The notes beneath the pieces were generated by a model. The model was not told the origin of the DNA. It ran no database searches and saw only the letters and a program-made list of their open reading frames with translations. A DNA stretch of 64,000 nucleotides from an uncultured Clostridia bacterium. Lineage in GTDB: Bacteria > Bacillota > Clostridia > Oscillospirales > Acutalibacteraceae. The position numbers and the translations under genes are program-made. Where the stretch lies: contig CANQBP010000009.1 of the NCBI GenBank assembly GCA_947589415.1, forward strand, positions 1 through 64,000. The letters are read 5' to 3'. Positions 11,632-43,984 of this stretch are shown here, in pieces; position 1 is the first letter of the stretch; every line of letters starts with the position of its first letter.

Positions 11632-12120
11632 TCAATTCGCATAGTTGAGATCCGCAAACGTATCTGCTCCGTTAGGTTTAAGCGGGGTCAAACCGCTTTT
11701 GGGAGGATCACCCAACACGGATATATTTCCGTTGGCATCGTACCCGAATTCATCAAGCCTGCTAAGTAAATCACTCAATCCGCCGTATTCCAATGCCCCT
11801 GCAACAGTACATCTTCTTGCGCATCCCATTTTTGTGCTTGTCGGCGCAACCTTATTTGGTATCAGATCACCCGATTGAGCAGCTGTAAAATTATCTCTAT
11901 TGATTTCTCCGCTTTTTACACCCGTATAATACATTTTACAAGCCTGATCCATCGATGCCGCCTCAGTTTCAAGAGCCGCAGACGATGCAGACTGTATTAT
12001 TGAAATAACGGCGGGAATAGCTATCGCAGCAAGAACCGCCAGAATTGCTACAACAACAACAAGCTCGATCAATGTAAAGCCTTTTCTGCTGCCGACCCGA
12101 ATACATCTTTTCCCTGACAT
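11632..12120 (-). CDS. Type IV pilin-like protein (paralogue 1)
   Basis: A 162-residue prepilin with a basic leader, cleavage site RKG-FTLIELVVVVAILAVLAAIAIPA and the conserved Glu at +5, then a hydrophobic helix and a soluble domain. It matches the other pilin at 14867-15403 through the helix and on into QSASSA...ACK..Y.GVKSG.IN, so the two are paralogues. A prepilin peptidase would process it and the protein would join a pilus or pseudopilus. The ATG at 12120 follows a GGGGGGAG site. The C-terminal half has a Cys pair (GCARRC) and a predicted calcium-loop-like DANGN stretch. Confidence 0.85.
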   Translation of the reverse strand: MSGKRCIRVGSRKGFTLIELVVVVAILAVLAAIAIPAVISIIQSASSAALETEAASMDQACKMYYTGVKSGEINRDNFTAAQSGDLIPNKVAPTSTKMGCARRCTVAGALEYGGLSDLLSRLDEFGYDANGNISVLGDPPKSGLTPLKPNGADTFADLNYAN

Positions 12121-12377
12121 ACCATTCTCCCCCCTCTTTTCCTTAACATTCATTCATATATAGGATATATTATAAATATATACTATGTCAATATACTTAA
12201 AAGAATTAAAAAATTTCTTATTTTAGAAATTTAACTCACTTTTTTATATATAATATACAATACTATCATTTACGGTTGGTTTCTATTACTGACATACACT
12301 CCCCTATGCCCAAAAATAGTTATAATTTCTAAATCTCTTTTGCCTTCACATTGTCCCGATAACGTTAGAAAAAATAA
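12121..12377. other. Spacer between pilin gene 1 and Rpn gene 1
   Basis: AT-rich, no gene. A TTGACA on the minus strand near 12192-12197 may belong to the pilin promoter, but the nearest TATAAT is only 11 nt away, so no firm promoter call is made. The long direct repeat containing Rpn begins at 12290. Confidence 0.5.
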
Positions 12378-12406
12378 TTGACATTAAACATAGATAAATA
12401 TATAAT
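12378..12406 (+). promoter_or_regulatory. Promoter of Rpn gene 1
   Basis: TTGACA (12378-12383), 17-nt spacer, TATAAT (12401-12406). Confidence 0.85.
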
Positions 12407-12431
12407 ATAATTAAGAAAGAAGGTGTTTCCG

Positions 12432-13430
12432 ATGCCTGAAACGGAATTAACGGACAGCAGAACAACAAAACACAAAACCAAAGATAGTGTGTTCTCACGT
12501 CTTTTCACTGACCCTAAAAATATCCTGCAACTGTACAAGGATCTCCACCCCGAAGATACCTCAACAACAGTAGATGATATCCAACCGGAAACTTTGGAAA
12601 CGGTGCTTGTCAACGATATATATAACGATTTAGGATTTATAGTGAAAGACAATGAAAACCCCAAGTATATTCTTTTAATTGAGGCACAAAGTATATGGAC
12701 TGAAAACATAACACTTCGTATGCTTTTCTACGTAACCGAAACATATCGGCGTTTTTTGAAAGCCTCAAAGCAGAGCGAACATATATCAAGAAAGGTATAT
12801 CTTCCGAAACCGGAATTTTATGTTGTCTATACGGGTAACAGAGTTATGCCGGAAGAAGTTTCTCTAAATAAGACCTACTTTGACGGAACAGCACCGCTTG
12901 ACATAAAAGTTAAAGTGCTTACCGCTCCCGGAACTAATACGATTTACGGTCAGTATATAGCTTTCAGCAAGATATATGATCAGCAGAGAAAAATTTACAG
13001 CAACACATTGGACTGCATAAAAGAAACAATTGGAATTTGTCTTGAAAAAGGCTTCCTTTCGGATTTTCTCAATGCACACAAACAGGAGGTAGTTACCATG
13101 TTATCCGAATTATTTGATGAAAAAGCTCTCCGTGAGCAGTACGATATTGCTTTAATGACAGAAAGTGAAGCAAGGGGTCGAGCCATCGGTGAAGCGGCAG
13201 GCGAAGCAAGGGGTCGAGCTATCGGTGAAGCGGCAGGCGAAGCAAGGGGTCGAGCTATTGGTGAAGCGGCAGGCGAAGCAAGAGGCAAGGCGAAAGGTGA
13301 GGAGAACGGATTTCTGAAAGCACTTACAGGTCTTGTAAAGAAAGGGATACTCACGGTTTCGCAGGCGGCGGAGGAAGCGAATTTAAGTATTGCGGAGTTT
13401 GAAACAAAAACCGGGATAAAAGCGACATAA
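12432..13430 (+). CDS. Rpn-family PD-(D/E)XK nuclease/transposase-like protein 1 (RpnL-like)
   Basis: A 332-residue protein of the Rpn (recombination-promoting nuclease, YhgA-like) family. The N-terminal nuclease domain has DSVFSRLF, the NDIYNDLGF region and ILLIEAQS, which fits the E-x-Q form of the PD-(D/E)XK site. Rpn proteins cut DNA and, in E. coli, act as toxins in phage defence, held in check by a short C-terminal product (RpnS) made from an internal start. Here an AGGAGGT plus ATG lies at 13084-13100 in frame. After it come three 12-residue repeats (ARGRAIGEAAGE type). ATG at 12432 follows GAAGG. A near-identical second gene lies at 13709. Confidence 0.88.
   Translation: MPETELTDSRTTKHKTKDSVFSRLFTDPKNILQLYKDLHPEDTSTTVDDIQPETLETVLVNDIYNDLGFIVKDNENPKYILLIEAQSIWTENITLRMLFYVTETYRRFLKASKQSEHISRKVYLPKPEFYVVYTGNRVMPEEVSLNKTYFDGTAPLDIKVKVLTAPGTNTIYGQYIAFSKIYDQQRKIYSNTLDCIKETIGICLEKGFLSDFLNAHKQEVVTMLSELFDEKALREQYDIALMTESEARGRAIGEAAGEARGRAIGEAAGEARGRAIGEAAGEARGKAKGEENGFLKALTGLVKKGILTVSQAAEEANLSIAEFETKTGIKAT
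13098..13430 (+). CDS. Internal in-frame product of Rpn gene 1 (RpnS-like, candidate antitoxin)
   Basis: An in-frame ATG within the rpn gene is preceded by a full AGGAGGT Shine-Dalgarno at 13084-13090 with 8-nt spacing, better than the site of the full gene. Translation from it would give a 110-residue protein beginning MLSELFDEKALREQYD, with the Gly-Glu-Ala-Arg-type repeats and the C-terminal helical part (FLKALTGLVKKGILTVSQAAEEA). In E. coli Rpn systems such separately translated C-terminal fragments bind and block the full-length nuclease. That role is carried over by analogy; the internal site is direct sequence evidence. Confidence 0.6.
   Translation: MLSELFDEKALREQYDIALMTESEARGRAIGEAAGEARGRAIGEAAGEARGRAIGEAAGEARGKAKGEENGFLKALTGLVKKGILTVSQAAEEANLSIAEFETKTGIKAT
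13167..13274 (+). repeat. Coding tandem repeat, 3 x 36 bp, in Rpn gene 1
   Basis: Three near-perfect 36-bp units starting GAAGCAAGGGG encode GRAIGEAAGEAR-type blocks, themselves three four-residue sub-units. In copy 2 the same place holds 12-bp units instead. The arrangement is prone to slippage and keeps the frame. Confidence 0.9.
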
Positions 13431-13454
13431 TAGTAGTAACGTATAATTTATTTT

Positions 13455-13491
13455 CAGCCTCGACACTTTAAGGGATTTAGTGTCGGGGCTG
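13455..13491 (+). terminator. Terminator after Rpn gene 1
   Basis: Inverted repeat AGCCTCGACACT...AGTGTCGGGGCT followed by GTTT; one G-T pair differs from the matching hairpin of copy 2. Confidence 0.75.
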
Positions 13492-13518
13492 TTTGGCAGG
13501 ATTATTTACTTGGGGTGT

Positions 13519-13564
13519 GCTTTCTTTCTGATTTTCCCAATGCGCATAAACCGGAGGTAGTTAG
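13519..13564 (+). repeat. Diverged fragment of a third Rpn copy
   Basis: About 46 bp between the two intact units match the rpn segment at 13052-13096 with several changes (GATTTTCCCAATGCGCATAA against GATTTTCTCAATGCACACAA) and include the internal ribosome site as CCGGAGGTAGTTA. The ATG is lost (TCTG). This is the trace of an older third copy. Confidence 0.7.
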
Positions 13565-13654
13565 TCTGACATACACTCCCCTATGCCGAAAAATAGTTAT
13601 AATTTATAAATCCCTGTTGCCTTCACATTGTCCCGATAACGTTAGAAAAAATAA

Positions 13655-13683
13655 TTGACATTATACATAGATAAATATATAAT
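13655..13683 (+). promoter_or_regulatory. Promoter of Rpn gene 2
   Basis: TTGACA, 17-nt spacer, TATAAT. One base differs in the spacer from the copy 1 promoter. Confidence 0.85.
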
Positions 13684-13708
13684 ATAATTAAGAAAGAAGG
13701 TGTTTCCG

Positions 13709-14659
13709 ATGCCTGAAACGGAATTAACGGACAGCAGAACAACAAAACACAAAACCAAAGATAGTGTGTTCTCACGTCTTTTCACTGACCCTAAAAATAT
13801 CCTGCAACTGTACAAGGATCTCCACCCCGAAGATACCTCAACAACAGTAGATGATATCCAACCGGAAACTTTGGAAACGGTGCTTGTCAACGATATATAT
13901 AACGATTTAGGATTTATAGTGAAAGACAATGAAAACCCCAAGTATATTCTTTTAATTGAGGCACAAAGTATATGGACTGAAAACATAACACTTCGTATGC
14001 TTTTCTACGTAACCGAAACATATCGGCGTTTTTTGAAAGCCTCAAAGCAGAGCGAACATATATCAAGAAAGGTATATCTTCCGAAACCGGAATTTTATGT
14101 TGTCTATACGGGTAACAGAGTTATGCCGGAAGAAGTTTCTCTAAATAAGACCTACTTTGACGGAACAGCACCGCTTGACATAAAAGTTAAAGTGCTTACC
14201 GCTCCCGGAACTAATACGATTTACGGTCAGTATATAGCTTTCAGCAAGATATATGATCAGCAGAGAAAAATTTACAGCAACACATTGGACTGCATAAAAG
14301 AAACAATTGGAATTTGTCTTGAAAAAGGCTTCCTTTCGGATTTTCTCAATGCACACAAACAGGAGGTAGTTACCATGTTATCCGAATTATTTGATGAAAA
14401 AGCTCTCCGTGAACAATACGATATTGCCCTAATTGCAGAAAGCGAAGCAAGGGGCGAGGCAAGAGGCGAAGCAAGAGGCGAAGCAAGGGGGCGAGCTATC
14501 GGTGAAGCGGCAGGCAAAGCTAAAGGTGAGGAGAACGGATTTCTGAAAGCACTTACAGGGCTTGTAAAGAAAGGGATACTCACGGTTTCGCAGGCGGCGG
14601 AGGAAGCGAATTTAAGTATTGCGGAGTTTGAAACAAAAACCGGGATAAAAGCGACATAA
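13709..14659 (+). CDS. Rpn-family PD-(D/E)XK nuclease/transposase-like protein 2 (RpnL-like)
   Basis: A 316-residue paralogue of the product at 12432-13430. The nuclease domain is identical in the given translations up to the residues just after the internal start (REQYDIAL). Then the copies differ: MTES in copy 1, IAES here. The repeat region here is three four-residue GEAR blocks plus one GRAIGEAAGKAK block. The last 45 residues are again the same. This pattern, identical toxin part with a variable linker in the putative antitoxin part, is what is known for Rpn genes in enterobacteria. It has its own promoter and terminator. Confidence 0.88.
   Translation: MPETELTDSRTTKHKTKDSVFSRLFTDPKNILQLYKDLHPEDTSTTVDDIQPETLETVLVNDIYNDLGFIVKDNENPKYILLIEAQSIWTENITLRMLFYVTETYRRFLKASKQSEHISRKVYLPKPEFYVVYTGNRVMPEEVSLNKTYFDGTAPLDIKVKVLTAPGTNTIYGQYIAFSKIYDQQRKIYSNTLDCIKETIGICLEKGFLSDFLNAHKQEVVTMLSELFDEKALREQYDIALIAESEARGEARGEARGEARGRAIGEAAGKAKGEENGFLKALTGLVKKGILTVSQAAEEANLSIAEFETKTGIKAT
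14375..14659 (+). CDS. Internal in-frame product of Rpn gene 2 (RpnS-like, candidate antitoxin)
   Basis: Same internal AGGAGGT (14361-14367) and ATG (14375) as in copy 1. The product would be 94 residues, 16 shorter than that of copy 1 because of fewer repeat units. If these fragments dimerise through the repeat helix, as known for RpnS of E. coli, the different lengths could reduce cross-binding. That is inference. Confidence 0.6.
   Translation: MLSELFDEKALREQYDIALIAESEARGEARGEARGEARGRAIGEAAGKAKGEENGFLKALTGLVKKGILTVSQAAEEANLSIAEFETKTGIKAT
14444..14515 (+). repeat. Coding tandem repeat of 12-bp units in Rpn gene 2
   Basis: Units of the form GAAGCAAGAGGC (encoding Glu-Ala-Arg-Gly) run three to four times, then one 36-bp block like those of copy 1. 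Confidence 0.85.
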
Positions 14660-14682: not shown

Positions 14683-14719
14683 CAGCCCCGACACTTTAAG
14701 GAATTTAGTGTCGGGGCTG
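14683..14719 (+). terminator. Terminator after Rpn gene 2
   Basis: Perfect inverted repeat CAGCCCCGACACT...AGTGTCGGGGCTG followed by TTAT. Confidence 0.8.
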
Positions 14720-14866: not shown

Positions 14867-15403
14867 TTAGTTGTAAAGACCTGCTGTACCACCTACGTTA
14901 CCGAGTGTTGTTGTACCTGCGAGCTGAGCGCTCTCACCAGAGTGAGGATCAGTACCGGTGCCGTCCCAATAATAAATAGTACCCATTGTAAGGTTACCTG
15001 ATGAACTTTTAGCAACTGTAATATAATGGAAGTCAGTGTAGTCAAGGTTTGTACCGTTATACTTCTGAACATCATCAACTTTTACAGCGTTAGCAGCCGT
15101 CTGCTTAGCTGTATTTGAAGCACCCTTAGCTGCTGCAAAACCCACCGGAGTATTATCAGCGTTTTTACTCTCCGTGTTGTTGATAGAACCGGACTTAACA
15201 CCTGCATATACGTTCTTGCAAGCACTGTTGAGTGTTGAAGCATCGGAGTCACCTGCCGAGCTTGAAGCGCTCTGGATAATGTTTACAACTGCCGGAATTG
15301 CGATAGCTGCGAGAATTGCAAGGATTGCAATAACAACTACGAGTTCAACGAGTGTGAAGCCTTTTTTGCTCTGTTTAGCGAGCAGTTTCTGTTGGAGTGT
15401 CAT
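14867..15403 (-). CDS. Type IV pilin-like protein (paralogue 2, likely major pilin)
   Basis: A 178-residue prepilin with leader MTLQQKLLAKQSKKG, cleavage before FTLVELVVVIAILAILAAIAIPA and Glu at +5. The body is rich in Ala, Thr, Asn and Gly, with two N-terminal-half similarities to paralogue 1 (SACKNVYAGVKSGSIN). A consensus promoter, a strong terminator and a long leader suggest high, single-gene expression, as for a major pilin. No assembly ATPase, platform protein or peptidase gene is in the window. It is separated from paralogue 1 by the two Rpn units. Confidence 0.87.
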   Translation of the reverse strand: MTLQQKLLAKQSKKGFTLVELVVVIAILAILAAIAIPAVVNIIQSASSSAGDSDASTLNSACKNVYAGVKSGSINNTESKNADNTPVGFAAAKGASNTAKQTAANAVKVDDVQKYNGTNLDYTDFHYITVAKSSSGNLTMGTIYYWDGTGTDPHSGESAQLAGTTTLGNVGGTAGLYN

Positions 15404-15736
15404 GATAGATTACCTCTTTCTTAATAAAAATTTTTTTTACTCGAACTCTGCACCTTGAAGGGGTAGGTGCTTTGTTCTTTGTTGAATATATATTAACTCT
15501 TTATGAACAAAATGTCAATAGTTTTTTTACAAAAAAATATATTTTTTCTGTAAAAAGAAAACGTAATTTTTTATGCAAATTGACGGGATTATTCAAAAAC
15601 TGCCGTTATTATTAACGGTTTTATTTATATTCAACCGTTTTTTTCGGATATTTCGTGTATTATTGCCTATTTTCGTAAAAAATCAATTATGAACAACTTT
15701 TGAACGACTTCATAATTTATTAAAATTTATCCCGCA
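15404..15736. other. Pilin gene 2 leader and AT-rich spacer
   Basis: It holds the pilin promoter (15490-15518), a leader of about 80 nt and 200 bp of AT-rich DNA further upstream. The short inverted repeat AACGGTT / AACCGTT near 15615-15645 may be an upstream control site or a terminator. No gene was seen. Confidence 0.5.
15490..15518 (-). promoter_or_regulatory. Promoter of pilin gene 2
   Basis: Minus strand TTGACA, 17-nt spacer, TAATAT. Confidence 0.75.
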
Positions 15737-36541: not shown

Positions 36542-39500
36542 TCAGCTGTTTGAATATACAACTTCCGGTTTAAACCTATCACCTGATGTACCGGCTAAGC
36601 CGCCGTCGTTGTCATAGCGGTTTTTAATTGTAACATACTCCATACTTTCCCAGTACTCCTCGTCAAACAGATCTGCAATATATCCTGTCTGACCTGCCGG
36701 TCGGGTAATTTCGTATGCACCCTCACGGATCGTAAACTGATGCAAGTCACCGTATGAGTCATAGTACTCAATATTCATATCCGTTTGGAATATGACGTCC
36801 ATCTTGTCATCATCGTCATACGTACCGATTTGGAAGTGCTTGCCGTAGTTACTTGTACCTACGAGCTTGCCGGACAACGCAAATGTAAGCTCATCGGCAT
36901 TGAATGTTACATTGTTATATACATTCAAATTAGTGTTGCCCTCCCAGCGGAAATACATCTTACCCGTTGTCATATACTTCATAAGTCTGTTTTCGGCAAA
37001 TGCACCGTCATTAACCGTGAGATTTACGGTCTTATTCGTTGCGTGAGCACCTGCCGTTATCGTCAGATCACTTCCGCTCTTAGTTACCCAGCCGCTGAGT
37101 GCGGTTGCATCAACTATATCACTCGGATCTCCGTCAAGCGGAGCAACATATTCACCGTAATTGATGGGATCTTCAAAGAAGTTCTTTGCTACCGTGCTGT
37201 ACAAATTCAGTCGCGGCTTCCAATTGCTTCCGCCCGTATCGGTATATATAAACGGGCCTACCTGACCGCTGTTAATTTCAGCTTGGGTATTTATGAAATT
37301 CTCATCAAACGTGTACGCACCGGCTTTTATCTTGTAGCTGTTACTCGGATCATAAGTGTTTACAGTCACATCATACTTGAAATATAGTGTTATCGGCTTA
37401 TATTTAAGTCCTTTAGCCTCTGCTTCGGTGTTTGCAACGGGTATTGCTGAACTTACCGATGCACGAACTGCCGCCATATCGAACAAATAAGCATCTGATG
37501 CAGAAGTCTGCTGCAGCACTGATGCAGAAATCTGACGATAATCCGTTGCAGTATTCTGTACCCAATATGATGTATCCGGCGTGGTCGCTCCGTCACCGGG
37601 CTGATGCACAAATACCCATGCGCCGTCAAGAAGATCTATTTTATCCTTCAAAGCACATTCCTTAGTCGTACCGTCGGGATATCTTATAACAAACTGAAGA
37701 TCGTACAGATAATTTTCACCGGCTGCGGGCTGAACGAAGATTATCGGACAGCCTTCGGTATTCTTATACTCCACGGTAGACTCACGTGTCATACCGCTTT
37801 CGTCGAGCTTGTATCTAAGGGCAAATTCAGCGCCGCGGGTTGCTGCTTTCTTCGTATCGAAGAATATAATCGGTATTCTGTCGTCTGTTGAAATGGTGAT
37901 GTTATCAACGGCAGAATTAAGTTTATCGGTTTGTCTGACTATATCATTTACCGTTGTCGTATCACTTTCATAGAGATTTTCTGCTTGAAGCAGTAATCTT
38001 TCAATTTCGGCAACAGCGGTGCTGTCAAAGATATCCGGTTGACCGTTACGGAGATATTCGGGATAGTTATGTCCGGGAACATAAGCTCTTGCGTTACTCA
38101 TAGCCACATAGAGATCCGAATATGCCGAAACCCACCTGTTGACATCATTGATATTTGCACTATATCCGTTACTGTTTATAACACCGTCCGTGAAATACGG
38201 GTCAATCAAATTCTTTTTGATTGCACCTGCATACTTGTAGGAACCTCTTCCTCCGTTACCGCCGAGGTTCTTAGGATTACCCTTTGCATCATACTGAATA
38301 GCAAGCACCTTGCCGTAGTAGAGCGAATGTGCCCCGTACAACGCTCTCTCAAGTGCAACCTTTGGCGGAACATAGTTATCCCAACCGCCTGCTCCCGAAT
38401 TCATATTGGTATCGAAGAGTATGAGGTCGTCGCCTTGGAGTGATGTTCTGTACACTTTCATTGTTCCGTCATCAAAGTACGCCGAGAATGTAATGAATGG
38501 TGTTTGTGCAGGTATCGTTGCACAAAGATACGTTGTAGTTTCCGTGTCATCGGTCATAAGATACTGTCCGCCTGCTCCTACACCGTTTGCCTGTATGGAA
38601 ACCGACTGCAAATTCGGAAGTTTTTTGAAGTATATGGTCTGATTGTCTTCAACCTGTACCGTTTCGGGATCTATGGTACAGAGCGACATATTTGTAAACA
38701 CACTGTTTCTCACGGTAATGTCCTTCATAACAAGCCATACATTTCCGTAAACGTCCTGAATTTGCTGTGTAAAGGTCGAATCCGTAGCATAACCGTCATC
38801 ATACCAATTTTTACCCGGTGTTACAGATGATCTTCTCAGACCCTGAATTTGGAATGAATATTCATCGGACTGATCAACAGGTATCTTACGTTCGTACCAG
38901 TCAAATATCAACGTCATTGTCGTATCACCGACACGTCCCATTGATTCACGGTTGCCGCCTGAACCGCCGAACAGATTAGTTCCCAGTACCCATGCACCGT
39001 TTTCGGATTTGAATGCACTATCGGGAAGCAACTCACGATTACCGTTAAGATAGAAACATCCGTATGAAGAATTGTATGACATATTTGTCAGCTTGATTTT
39101 TGATCCGCCAACATAAGGCATTCTCAAATCCGTTACCATAGTACCTCTGTCAATTGCGGGAACCATCGTTGTGTAAGACGGTGCAACATCACTACGTTTT
39201 GCTCTATAATGGTAGGCATAAGCTCCACCAACACTTGTACCATAACTATAGTTAGTTACTTTTCCCGGCGCATAGGGCCAAATGCTCACTCTGTGACCTG
39301 CTCTGTCAGGACATTTATTACCTGTGCTTGCATGGTAATCATAAATATAAACTCCTCCAACAACCTCTGCACCACCCATTACAGTAGTTACCGTAGAACT
39401 GCTACGGTAATCTGTATAACCGTTTCTGCTGAGAACTTCATCATCTATTAAGGTAAACAAACAGCAGCCACCGGTTTGGTTTTCATTACCATAATTGCAC

Positions 39501-42500
39501 TCAAACGGTCTGCAGAATGAATCATGAACCAGGGGAGCACTCGCACGATTGCTTAAGCAAGACTTATCCCAGTTTGTAGGATACGAACACGGATGAGTAT
39601 CTTCAAAGCACTGGGTGTCCGCCATATCGAGATAAATCTGTCCGCCGTCATTTTGTCCGTCGTTTGCTTGTCCTGCCGGTGTACCTCCGACCTTTTCGGC
39701 TCCGGCGTTCTTAGTAATGATACAACCGTAAGCTGTCGCACTTACAACTACGTAATAACAATCGTCTGACTCATCAACACGAATTGCCTGTGTTCCGGGC
39801 CATGCTCCGTTGAGGGATCGGTCATACCTGTCCCAAACATAAACCCACGGCTGCGCTCCATTAAGTGTTCTGTCGGCATCGATCCAAATTACCGTTTTAC
39901 CGAGGTTAATTCTTGGAATACCTCCAAGACCGTCCTGGTTAAAATAGTCAAATGTTACAGTCTTAGTAGTAAATCCGTTTGCCGCAGTTACCACCGGCAC
40001 CGGTGCAGATACCGCTGCGGGTGCTGTAAGAAGCTCACTTGCAAAAGTTGATGATACAACACCGCTAAGCTCTCCTACGCTGTTAAATGAAACATTACTT
40101 CCGGTTGAAACGTTGGTCGAATATTTCGGATAAATATTCTTTGCGGATATAAGCTCTGATGAAACATTCTTAAATGTATATGCGGAATATGCAGCCGATA
40201 TTTGATTGTCAGACACATAAGTAACGTTCAATTCGCCTGCTCTCGGCACATTCATAGATGATGTCACAATTTCCTGCTCTCCGTCATCGCCGTACCTTCT
40301 GTAAACGCTGAAGGCGAACTCGCCGCTGTACTGTGCGGTGTACACATACTGCATACCGTCAAAATAAGCCTCTACCGGTTCGGAATTACCTATCTTTATA
40401 CCTACAAATGTCGTATCATCACCGCTTATTGTGGTACTGTTATAGGGAATATTTATCTTAACGGTAGGTCTGTCGGTTTTGTTTGTCTCATCGGGTTTTA
40501 ATACATACTGACCTATCTGTGAGGCAAAGGAATTTGTGTAGAGATATTCGCTGTCATCAATAGAATAATACCTTACCTGAACATTCTGTCCTGCCTCATA
40601 AACATATCTTGCAACATTGTACGGACCTTCTTTGATTGTGTTGTAATCAGTCTTTTCTCCGTCAGCTCCCGTTACTTCCACAACCGCATTCTCTGCTCCG
40701 GATATATAAAGCTCGGAGAGTTTTGCCCTCTTCATCTCAAGTATATCCTTCTCCGCATTTCCTTGGCTTGTAACAACAAGTCCTGCTAAATCAAATACAA
40801 TGTTACCGTCCTGCATCTCACTTACGGGAACATTTTGTTCGGTAGTAAATACTACTGTCTTAGTTCCTATAATTTGATGTTTTCCGGTCGACGGGTCAAT
40901 TTCGCCGAGTTCATTCTGAACCGTCGTAAGCACAAATCTTGCGCTGTTAAAACTATCATAATCCACATCTGTGTACGAAAGTCCCTGTGCAACTATTTTG
41001 TTGAAGGAACTGCCTACATTGTAGTTTCCGACAACTGTGTCGTCCTTATACAGCTGCATGGTAAGTCCGGTAACCTCATAGGGAGTTTCGGCAGTTTTTT
41101 CGGCACCGTTTATGCTGCCCTCATGATATGTCCGCAGAACCGTTCCTACTGCAAGACCCTCAACCCATATCCTTACCTTATTCTCTGAAAGGAGCTTGTC
41201 TGTTGCTGTCGAATCGCCGTTAGTTGTTCCGCTGCCCGGCTTGTACACATAAAACTCGTCATATGCTTTCTTGAGTTTATCATATACTGCATCAACTTTT
41301 TCCTGTGTTGCACTTATGTCCGTGATCATAGAATTTGCTTCATTAACTGCATCTTGAAGATTTTTATAGGTTTCATCCGTGCAGTCAACCTTCAAATCGA
41401 TCATCGGCTGTGCCAAAGCTACCAAATCCACTAACGGTCTTGTATCAACATTAACGTCCGGATTAGCAAGAACATCTTCTATTGCCTTATTCAGATCTTC
41501 CGCCGCCTTGTCGATATCCGACTGTGTCGGGCCTAAATTATCCGCATTTTCAGCCACTGTCAAAGCTGCTGCAAGTGCATCTCTGTATTCTCTCTTATAT
41601 CTATCATTGTTCAAATACGGCTGTGCTTTCTTAATTGCATCATCAAGTACACTCTTATCGAGCTTGGAAGAAACTACACTTGTATATTCCGCTTTCAGCT
41701 TGTCAATAAGTTCGATAACTTCCGAAGAATTATAAACCTTGCCGCTTGGGGAATTAAGTATTTCTCCACTATCAATCAAAGCCTTTGCGTTTACATATTC
41801 GCCCATTTCAAAGAGGGCAAACTGTACAACATCATACACAACCTTGTTGTGCTGCTCTGTTATAATGCTTGTACATTCATTAACGAGCTTTTCATACTCA
41901 CTATAAAGTTCGTTGCTGACTACCTTTGTTCTGAGTGCCTTTACAGCATCATCAATTTCCTGTACCTTTTTCTCATATACGTCATCTCCGTGAACTACCG
42001 TATCATTCAGCAAATCAACTGCCTCATTAAGAACATTCTGAAGTGCATCATAGCTTGCATCTTCATAGTCATCACGAAGATATGACGAACGTGCCTCGTT
42101 TACCTTTTCGGTAAGAATTCTTTTGGCTGTCGTTGATACGCCGCTGCTCTCATAATCCAAATAGGGAGCAACTGCCGAACCTATCATACTTGATTTTACA
42201 CGGACTGTCGTGTATGCCTTATAGTCAAGACCTATCAGGTCACACGCCTTTCTCTCCGTAAGTCGGCAGGCAATCGAATTGGGTCTTGCCGGGTCTACAA
42301 CGACAAATGCTTCATTTTCCGTATTAGGTGTAACCGACACGGTTTCGGTTACGGGATTTCCGGATTTATCATAGTAGGTTAATACCATATCGAAGTTCTT
42401 GGCACATTCGATATTTGCTACCCACCAACCGCAGCCTTCGTAAAGCATCTTCTGCTTTCCTGCATCATCAATTCCGTAGAAGTAATCTAGGCTGCCGTTA

Positions 42501-43957
42501 CCTCTTCCGGCAGAACCGGCTTTTATGGTGCTGACAAAGTCAAGCTGCCAGATACTTTCGAGCGTACTGTTGCTGAACATATCTTCATCAACGTTGCCGT
42601 TATTAAATCTTCTAATATTGGTGTCACGCTGTGTAGTATCGAATATAGAAACACCGTTTACGGTTATACTGTTTATAACCGGTGCTTTTGTAGGCGCATT
42701 GTTTGCCTCATCGGGATCATCGGGATCTCCCAAGCCTTTTACCTTGAAATGTACCGTTGTCTTTTTATTTTTTACATAGACCAACATTCTGTCGTCAAGT
42801 GTTTCAAGACCGTTCCATGCATAGCCGTCCTTATAAAGAAGACCGGGCTGTAAAAACTCAAAATAAATGTTCTTGTCATCACTAAAAAGATACCAAAGGT
42901 GGAACATTTCACTTGTCTGGGTTTCCGGACGCCACTCGCCGTTTCTTCCGTTAAGTACCTGACCTTTCTTTGTAATGATCAAGTTGAAATAATTAACGTT
43001 ATCGCTGTCATAATAGTATGTGGCATTATACCAACCCCCGCTGCCGCTTGAAGCAAAAGATGTTGCAGGACCGTTTCGGGGATCGTCAGGATTACTCTCG
43101 ATTACGTTCCAAGGCTCCGGAGAAAATACGTGCGGATTGTTAGGATCGCTGTTATCATGGTTCTCCGTAAAAGCATCGTAAATCGTTTTGGAAGATTTGA
43201 CTATATTTCCCGAACTATCCAGAGTGTAATAAGTATACGGACCTAATACATTTCGTGAGCTGTTATAGAGGTTATTGTTATTTTTATAATAAGTTTCCAA
43301 TCCGTAACAGTTGTCGGTAAGACTGTACAACCCCGTCACATCTTTATATGTCCACAAATAATAGAAAGGCGTCCAGTTCTCTCCGGGATACTGTTTTACG
43401 TGCATATTGATGGCATCCTGCTGCGGATAGTTCAGTACGTCCGTTGTCATATCAACATCCGTCAAGGTCATCCTGCTCTTACTTGTTTTTTTGTTAAGAG
43501 TGTAGGTGCCTGCAATACTCACCGACTTTGATTTCTTTCCAAAAGCATCCGTCGACCTGGAATATGCAACCAGCTTGAGAAGTGAATCTCCTGTCGTAGA
43601 CGGAATATAATTTGCCTGAACATACGTCGTATAGTCCTGAGCATCAGCTTCGGTCGCCACGAAATCTGCGCCGCCTTCGACTGTACCTCCGTCCTTGTCA
43701 AGCATGACCATGTACTCATCACTCACCGTGGTGATGTCCGGTACACTATCGGTATTGCAGTAGTATGTATACGCATACTCAAGCGCACTTCTTGCATTCA
43801 AATACGCCTGACGGCTGTTCACGGTACTACTCGTATTGGTAATACTCGTAAGAGCAATTCCGATGAGTGACACGGAAAGGATAATAAGTACACAAGTCAC
43901 AGCCATTGCCACAGGCAACGTTATACCCTGCTTGCTTTTGAGCTTCTTTGATAACAT
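36542..43957 (-). CDS. Giant pilin-like surface protein with FIVAR repeats and starch-binding-like module
   Basis: A 2471-residue protein. The N terminus is prepilin-like: KKLKSKQG-ITLPVAMAVTCVLIILSVSLIGIAL, with a Gly before the hydrophobic helix but Val, not Glu, at +5, as in tip-type minor (pseudo)pilins. Residues about 617-905 form helical FIVAR-type repeats (TEKVNEARSSY..., DAIKKAQPYLNNDRY...); about 1355-1440 resemble a CBM26 module (NGAQPWVYVWDRYD..NGAWPG). A Cys-rich segment follows, and beta-rich domains of no clear family fill the rest. No C-terminal anchor is seen. It may be a pilus-tip adhesin for starch or plant particles; this is inferred. It has its own promoter and terminator. 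Confidence 0.75.
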   Translation of the reverse strand: MLSKKLKSKQGITLPVAMAVTCVLIILSVSLIGIALTSITNTSSTVNSRQAYLNARSALEYAYTYYCNTDSVPDITTVSDEYMVMLDKDGGTVEGGADFVATEADAQDYTTYVQANYIPSTTGDSLLKLVAYSRSTDAFGKKSKSVSIAGTYTLNKKTSKSRMTLTDVDMTTDVLNYPQQDAINMHVKQYPGENWTPFYYLWTYKDVTGLYSLTDNCYGLETYYKNNNNLYNSSRNVLGPYTYYTLDSSGNIVKSSKTIYDAFTENHDNSDPNNPHVFSPEPWNVIESNPDDPRNGPATSFASSGSGGWYNATYYYDSDNVNYFNLIITKKGQVLNGRNGEWRPETQTSEMFHLWYLFSDDKNIYFEFLQPGLLYKDGYAWNGLETLDDRMLVYVKNKKTTVHFKVKGLGDPDDPDEANNAPTKAPVINSITVNGVSIFDTTQRDTNIRRFNNGNVDEDMFSNSTLESIWQLDFVSTIKAGSAGRGNGSLDYFYGIDDAGKQKMLYEGCGWWVANIECAKNFDMVLTYYDKSGNPVTETVSVTPNTENEAFVVVDPARPNSIACRLTERKACDLIGLDYKAYTTVRVKSSMIGSAVAPYLDYESSGVSTTAKRILTEKVNEARSSYLRDDYEDASYDALQNVLNEAVDLLNDTVVHGDDVYEKKVQEIDDAVKALRTKVVSNELYSEYEKLVNECTSIITEQHNKVVYDVVQFALFEMGEYVNAKALIDSGEILNSPSGKVYNSSEVIELIDKLKAEYTSVVSSKLDKSVLDDAIKKAQPYLNNDRYKREYRDALAAALTVAENADNLGPTQSDIDKAAEDLNKAIEDVLANPDVNVDTRPLVDLVALAQPMIDLKVDCTDETYKNLQDAVNEANSMITDISATQEKVDAVYDKLKKAYDEFYVYKPGSGTTNGDSTATDKLLSENKVRIWVEGLAVGTVLRTYHEGSINGAEKTAETPYEVTGLTMQLYKDDTVVGNYNVGSSFNKIVAQGLSYTDVDYDSFNSARFVLTTVQNELGEIDPSTGKHQIIGTKTVVFTTEQNVPVSEMQDGNIVFDLAGLVVTSQGNAEKDILEMKRAKLSELYISGAENAVVEVTGADGEKTDYNTIKEGPYNVARYVYEAGQNVQVRYYSIDDSEYLYTNSFASQIGQYVLKPDETNKTDRPTVKINIPYNSTTISGDDTTFVGIKIGNSEPVEAYFDGMQYVYTAQYSGEFAFSVYRRYGDDGEQEIVTSSMNVPRAGELNVTYVSDNQISAAYSAYTFKNVSSELISAKNIYPKYSTNVSTGSNVSFNSVGELSGVVSSTFASELLTAPAAVSAPVPVVTAANGFTTKTVTFDYFNQDGLGGIPRINLGKTVIWIDADRTLNGAQPWVYVWDRYDRSLNGAWPGTQAIRVDESDDCYYVVVSATAYGCIITKNAGAEKVGGTPAGQANDGQNDGGQIYLDMADTQCFEDTHPCSYPTNWDKSCLSNRASAPLVHDSFCRPFECNYGNENQTGGCCLFTLIDDEVLSRNGYTDYRSSSTVTTVMGGAEVVGGVYIYDYHASTGNKCPDRAGHRVSIWPYAPGKVTNYSYGTSVGGAYAYHYRAKRSDVAPSYTTMVPAIDRGTMVTDLRMPYVGGSKIKLTNMSYNSSYGCFYLNGNRELLPDSAFKSENGAWVLGTNLFGGSGGNRESMGRVGDTTMTLIFDWYERKIPVDQSDEYSFQIQGLRRSSVTPGKNWYDDGYATDSTFTQQIQDVYGNVWLVMKDITVRNSVFTNMSLCTIDPETVQVEDNQTIYFKKLPNLQSVSIQANGVGAGGQYLMTDDTETTTYLCATIPAQTPFITFSAYFDDGTMKVYRTSLQGDDLILFDTNMNSGAGGWDNYVPPKVALERALYGAHSLYYGKVLAIQYDAKGNPKNLGGNGGRGSYKYAGAIKKNLIDPYFTDGVINSNGYSANINDVNRWVSAYSDLYVAMSNARAYVPGHNYPEYLRNGQPDIFDSTAVAEIERLLLQAENLYESDTTTVNDIVRQTDKLNSAVDNITISTDDRIPIIFFDTKKAATRGAEFALRYKLDESGMTRESTVEYKNTEGCPIIFVQPAAGENYLYDLQFVIRYPDGTTKECALKDKIDLLDGAWVFVHQPGDGATTPDTSYWVQNTATDYRQISASVLQQTSASDAYLFDMAAVRASVSSAIPVANTEAEAKGLKYKPITLYFKYDVTVNTYDPSNSYKIKAGAYTFDENFINTQAEINSGQVGPFIYTDTGGSNWKPRLNLYSTVAKNFFEDPINYGEYVAPLDGDPSDIVDATALSGWVTKSGSDLTITAGAHATNKTVNLTVNDGAFAENRLMKYMTTGKMYFRWEGNTNLNVYNNVTFNADELTFALSGKLVGTSNYGKHFQIGTYDDDDKMDVIFQTDMNIEYYDSYGDLHQFTIREGAYEITRPAGQTGYIADLFDEEYWESMEYVTIKNRYDNDGGLAGTSGDRFKPEVVYSNS

Positions 43958-43984
43958 AGCAGCTACTTCCTTTCCTCAAATATT

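Follow-up and report, generated by a model that had tools for sequence, protein, structure and literature searches.

The tandem rpn pair in the window (the whole 64,000-nucleotide stretch analyzed) very likely consists of two Rpn toxin-antitoxin genes-within-genes, in each of which a full-length nuclease toxin, RpnL, would be encoded together with an antitoxin, RpnS, begun at an internal start codon. The features of the locus are as follows.

12432..13430, plus strand: rpn copy A, full-length nuclease RpnL-A, 332 aa (open reading frame; PF04754 at 26.2 bits; D18, D66, E84, Q86, and R96 conserved)
13709..14659, plus strand: rpn copy B, full-length nuclease RpnL-B, 316 aa (open reading frame; Pfam)
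13084..13090, plus strand: internal Shine-Dalgarno sequence AGGAGGT of copy A (codon choice kept in 39/39 Glu-bearing clusters of homologs)
14361..14367, plus strand: internal Shine-Dalgarno sequence AGGAGGT of copy B (pattern and homolog codon test)
13098..13430, plus strand: predicted RpnS-A from the internal ATG at 13098, 110 aa (homologous free S genes begin at the same Met)
14375..14659, plus strand: predicted RpnS-B from the internal ATG at 14375, 94 aa (reading of the open frame)
13167..13310, plus strand: repeat tract of copy A, made of twelve four-residue units, among them three 36-nt blocks of nearly identical sequence
14444..14539, plus strand: repeat tract of copy B, made of eight four-residue units, with expansion one 12-nt unit at a time
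12378..12406, plus strand: putative consensus promoter of copy A, TTGACA-17-TATAAT, 12/12 (pattern match)
13655..13683, plus strand: putative consensus promoter of copy B, 12/12 (pattern match)
13455..13491, plus strand: terminator-like hairpin of copy A, 13-bp stem, -22.9 kcal/mol
14683..14719, plus strand: terminator-like hairpin of copy B, -25.9 kcal/mol
13519..13563, plus strand: remnant of a third rpn-type unit, the 15 codons that lead up to the internal start, CCGGAGGTAGTTA, 87% to copy A

In both copies, the AGGAGG (from 13084 and 14361) is spaced 8 nt from an in-frame ATG, and the 669 nt between the main ATG and the internal start show no difference between copies. The sequence-only reading had reported this motif and spacing with products of 110 and 94 residues, an identical nuclease part, and four-residue repeats that differ between copies; on rechecking, its positions and lengths were all correct, and the repeats indeed number 12 versus 8 units of different types. 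Because each copy has a 12/12 promoter and a strong end hairpin, the two look like separate transcription units.

Assignment of the locus to the Rpn family (YhgA/Transposase_31, PF04754, COG5464) is supported by profile comparisons. The Transposase_31 score exceeds its cutoff of 21, the score for the Rpn subfamily model TIGR01784 lies under its cutoff, and a profile of 74 homologs matches Escherichia coli RpnA with an E value of 8e-9. In the profile alignment, RpnA residues D11, D63, E82, Q84, and R94 correspond to D18, D66, E84, Q86, and R96 here, of which the last four are invariant in the 74 homologs and D18 is at least 90% conserved. Mutating these five residues of RpnA abolished recombination promotion, and toxicity was lost too in D11A, D63A, E82A, and Q84K (PMC5350276). 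The AlphaFold model of the full-length protein (pLDDT 86) combines a domain of mixed alpha/beta structure with a single helix in the tail, residues 217 to 303, that holds the repeats. PD-(D/E)XK nucleases are prominent among its top structural matches, which reach a Z score of at most 5.5, none significant, and include EndoMS, Avs3, PaqCI, Shedu, and McrC among unrelated proteins. The model of the short product (pLDDT 64) has a C-terminal helix-turn-helix-like part only, and PDB 7TH0 (RpnAS, a dimer) is not among the matches listed. Foldseek with the full-length and short models gave no significant match, a PDB sequence search with the homolog profile returned nothing relevant, and PADLOC 2.0.0 gave no hit for the locus.

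Is the internal start real? Among the 50 open reading frames of the window, only the two rpn genes contain AGGAGG-N5-10-ATG internally and in frame. Synonymous-codon shuffles of the window yield 1.3 such sites on average (maximum, 4), and the two copies count as one event by descent; hence, the motif is not significant on the window alone. Of the 528 internal start codons ranked by hybridization energy, the rpn internal site falls within the top seven. With the count at chance and the energy rank unremarkable, judging the motif by window statistics was dropped for a homolog test. Patterns lying outside the internal site were run against 84,980 species genomes, and the hits, joined with those from relatives, provided 84 distinct genes of roughly 25 to 75% identity, which were clustered at 70% (40 clusters) and 50% identity.

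The Glu of the motif, where present, is encoded by GAG in 83/83 aligned genes, the single exception codon being AAG. Counted by clusters (<70% identity), it is GAG in 39/39, compared to 14 to 58% GAG in other Glu columns, with a probability of 1.7e-17 under each gene's own codon usage; at 50% identity, GAG is found in 17/17 clusters (P = 3.5e-8). The genes otherwise favor GAA. In 31 cases the codon ahead of this Glu has a synonymous choice, and 29 of these codons have G as the last base, against 10.5 expected; Lys at this place is AAG, never AAA, though the preceding codon is often AAA. The internal start is ATG in 38/40 clusters, and E. coli rpnA has AAGGAG-N6-ATG at the corresponding place. 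The mRNA near the internal start folds more weakly than shuffled sequences do (z = +1.6). Read across relatives, the codon pattern is a signature of selection for a ribosome-binding site and start codon. The AGGAGG-ATG might instead simply follow from conservation of a protein motif (Q/K/A-E-V-x-x-M), without any translation starting inside the gene, an account that draws on the strong conservation of the motif as protein and on the chance-level count of such sites in the window. We consider this extremely improbable, since the choice among synonymous codons is locked to the ribosome site and free S genes start at this very site; as a general account, it is already refuted by the homolog codon test. 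The synonymous-codon test shows the inner start of rpn genes to have persisted over long evolutionary times in Clostridia and also in genomes labeled Fibrimonadales, Thermoguttaceae, and Synergistaceae, lending independent support to its published broad conservation.

The repeat tracts read (EARG RAIG EAAG)x3 EARG KAKG EENG in copy A and EARGx4 RAIG EAAG KAKG EENG in copy B, making the tail of copy B 16 aa shorter. Copy A grew by 36-nt blocks (EARG-RAIG-EAAG three times) and copy B by single 12-nt units, so that the tracts of the two copies changed separately. Four-residue periodicity is found in most of the family; the onset of the repeats here, ~23 residues past the internal Met, is slightly outside the 8 to 20 given by Zhong (PMC10327210). 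NCBIfam matches to FliH were set aside, as they sit on the four-residue repeats and fall far under the FliH cutoffs. In three loci of the same genus (L124, L128, and L134), a frameshift in or beside the repeat tract splits rpn and the tail goes on in another frame, which could be phase variation or assembly error. A tandem rpn pair in Blautia sp. MSJ-19 (L104) has copies one repeat unit apart; it is one of the exceptions to the ATG rule, the internal start codon being ACG in both copies, with the ribosome site kept.

Copies A and B share a 748-nt identical block (12388 to 13135) and have 22 substitutions in the remaining aligned sequence. When the repeat zone is excluded, differences number 0/748 versus 10/294 (Fisher P = 3e-6). 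Plain recent duplication does not predict such a contrast, whereas it is predicted if the nuclease part underwent gene conversion or if the outer parts are of mosaic origin.

The tail unit has also been duplicated as free genes, and several lineages have free S genes, with a ribosome site of the same type, downstream of rpn; counting those at contig edges was rejected as unreliable. In one relative (G091, locus L043), a free tail copy with CCGGAGGTCGTTACGATG lies 76 nt past the rpn stop and has two repeat units fewer. The free tail after rpn is 20 residues shorter than its neighbor's tail in L082, 8 residues shorter in L055, and of equal length with rearranged units and a lost ribosome site in L075; that of L132, compared with L034, is 8 residues shorter, less certain because the two are joined across contigs. 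Four of five free tails therefore differ from the neighbor's tail by multiples of four residues. In the window, the remnant at 13519 to 13563 lies in the spacer between the copies, breaks off at the duplication junction, and has F-P...P-E-V-V in common with the free rpnS leader of L043; judged by this likeness, the spacer holds a truncated leader of a free-tail type unit. In a truncated paralog of the same genome (contig C27), the long frame stops soon after the ribosome site and the tail has an open frame beginning at an ATG of its own. Elsewhere, two free tails with unequal repeat numbers stand in tandem beside a contig end (L131, G246:C152), and at 2251 to 2806 of L061 a helix-turn-helix domain, XRE-like by eye, is followed in a fusion by an Rpn tail that includes its ribosome site.

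In E. coli, the full-length Rpn nuclease is toxic and its tail product, RpnS, is its antitoxin, the two pairing via the repeat-bearing helix in a manner sensitive to repeat number (PMC10327210). From Zhong et al. 2023 (PMC10327210), we infer RpnS translation, toxicity, inhibition, repeat-length specificity, and phage defence for the pair in the window by analogy. Each copy, with its own promoter and terminator-like hairpin, would give rise to RpnL and RpnS. RpnL would be a DNA endonuclease of the PD-(D/E)XK type that carries a helical tail at its C terminus, and RpnS would be that tail alone, begun at the conserved internal ribosome-binding site. By pairing with a matching RpnL tail via the repeat-bearing helix, RpnS would hold the nuclease inactive, and loss of pairing, e.g., in phage infection, would free it. 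With one shared nuclease and tails four repeat units apart, each RpnS would probably restrain its own RpnL only, so that the antitoxins of copies A and B are probably mutually nonrecognizing.

Other accounts accept the internal site as real. Instead of acting as an antitoxin, the short product could be a constant part of the nuclease complex, much as Cas11d is an obligate partner of Cas10d; a conserved start and free S genes would look alike under such an account, and the single long tail helix of the AlphaFold model could assemble oligomers. We regard this as improbable, since the C-terminal RpnS of E. coli blocks nuclease activity, growth inhibition, and SOS induction, and does so specifically for its own RpnL (PMC10327210). 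A lesser but realistic chance attaches to free cross-inhibition between the two S products, with the repeat difference being neutral slippage and the pair a recent duplication of higher dose. The tract does grow by perfect 12- and 36-nt steps, as in slippage, and one tandem pair (L035) is identical, repeats included; against this, a single added repeat in RpnC abolished inhibition both ways (PMC10327210), and the copies here are four units apart. The pair might also be partly an assembly product, with copies or phasing wrong, because the 748-nt identical block is longer than short reads; other rpn genes of the same genome stop at contig edges (C27:1 and C65:1), as repeats do in short-read assemblies. 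However, the copies have unlike upstreams, repeats, and tails (22 differences), all in one contig, and other genomes also have tandem rpn pairs, which makes an artifact of this kind unlikely.

Beyond two toxin-antitoxin pairs, rpn loci might constitute a diversification system, a proposal that we put forward as speculative and rather unlikely: gene conversion would keep the nuclease uniform, the toxin tail and antitoxin would change by 12-nt steps, and shed free tails with an earlier or different repeat number would neutralize a former or foreign allele, not the neighbor. If so, the window would capture the state reached when a single duplication had made two mutually blind toxin-antitoxin pairs.

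Like E. coli RpnA-E and RpnP2, the genes studied here have an N-terminal Transposase_31 nuclease that shares the active-site residues, an internal ribosome site and ATG, a predicted C-terminal product with variable four-residue repeats, tandem arrays, and downstream free S copies. Unlike in E. coli, the tail sequence is hardly recognizable, the repeats are EARG/RAIG/EAAG, and the window has a natural pair with an identical nuclease and a four-unit difference. The rpn gene of Clostridioides difficile, by its published description, is likewise a Gram-positive Clostridia gene, and its RpnS was detected in E. coli and lost on mutating the ribosome site and start (PMC10327210). The likeness to the E. 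coli layout drawn by the sequence-only reading thus stands on sequence evidence with respect to family, selected internal start, variable repeats, and tandem duplication, but the C. difficile gene means that this layout is not new outside E. coli. Tandem rpn arrays and variable four-residue repeats have also been described (Zhong et al. 2023, PMC10327210); with class, Clostridia occurrence, tandem arrays, and repeat variation already published, the pair in the window joins a known class. The number of four-residue repeats (TAEL) alters specificity in EcoR124I/EcoR124II as in Rpn (cited in PMC10327210); the former differ in that restriction enzyme specificity is concerned, without an internal antitoxin. 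The present analysis adds a test of the inner start in quantitative terms, the comparison of free tails, and a natural matched experiment of one nuclease with two tails four repeat units apart, suited to asking if toxin-antitoxin recognition is set by repeat number in bacteria other than E. coli.

Family matches occur in 39 of 61 genomes of the source genus, many with several. An internal promoter for a short transcript, which E. coli has, was sought in the window, and the best candidates, 9/12 matches, were weak and lay well upstream of that start. The locus is not bracketed by convincing terminal inverted repeats of an insertion sequence or transposase unit, only by short A+T-rich pairs of the kind expected by chance. 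Two related pilin-like genes on the minus strand flank the rpn pair (11635 to 12153 and 14870 to 15409). A relative (G220, locus L183; LDH 91% identical) shares the order gatD-ldh-pilin-pilin-topA with the window but lacks rpn there. In its syntenic spacer, at about 2300 to 2370 of L183, a short open reading frame (MADTDLAIYNFIKDDDKLKYAL) resembles a shrunken rpn start region and is perhaps an rpn relic; this spoils the spacer as a clean empty site, and insertion and loss both fit. At 780 to 1100 of the window, on the minus strand, lies a fragment of another Rpn-like family with an intact internal ribosome site (AAGGGAGGTATTACTATG); its tail diverges and has an early stop, with 63% identity over 48 residues to the end of a same-genus gene (L146). 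Further along the window, at 36545 to 43975 on the minus strand, a 2,477-codon open frame starts like a pilin or secreted protein (LKSKQGITLPVAMAVT).
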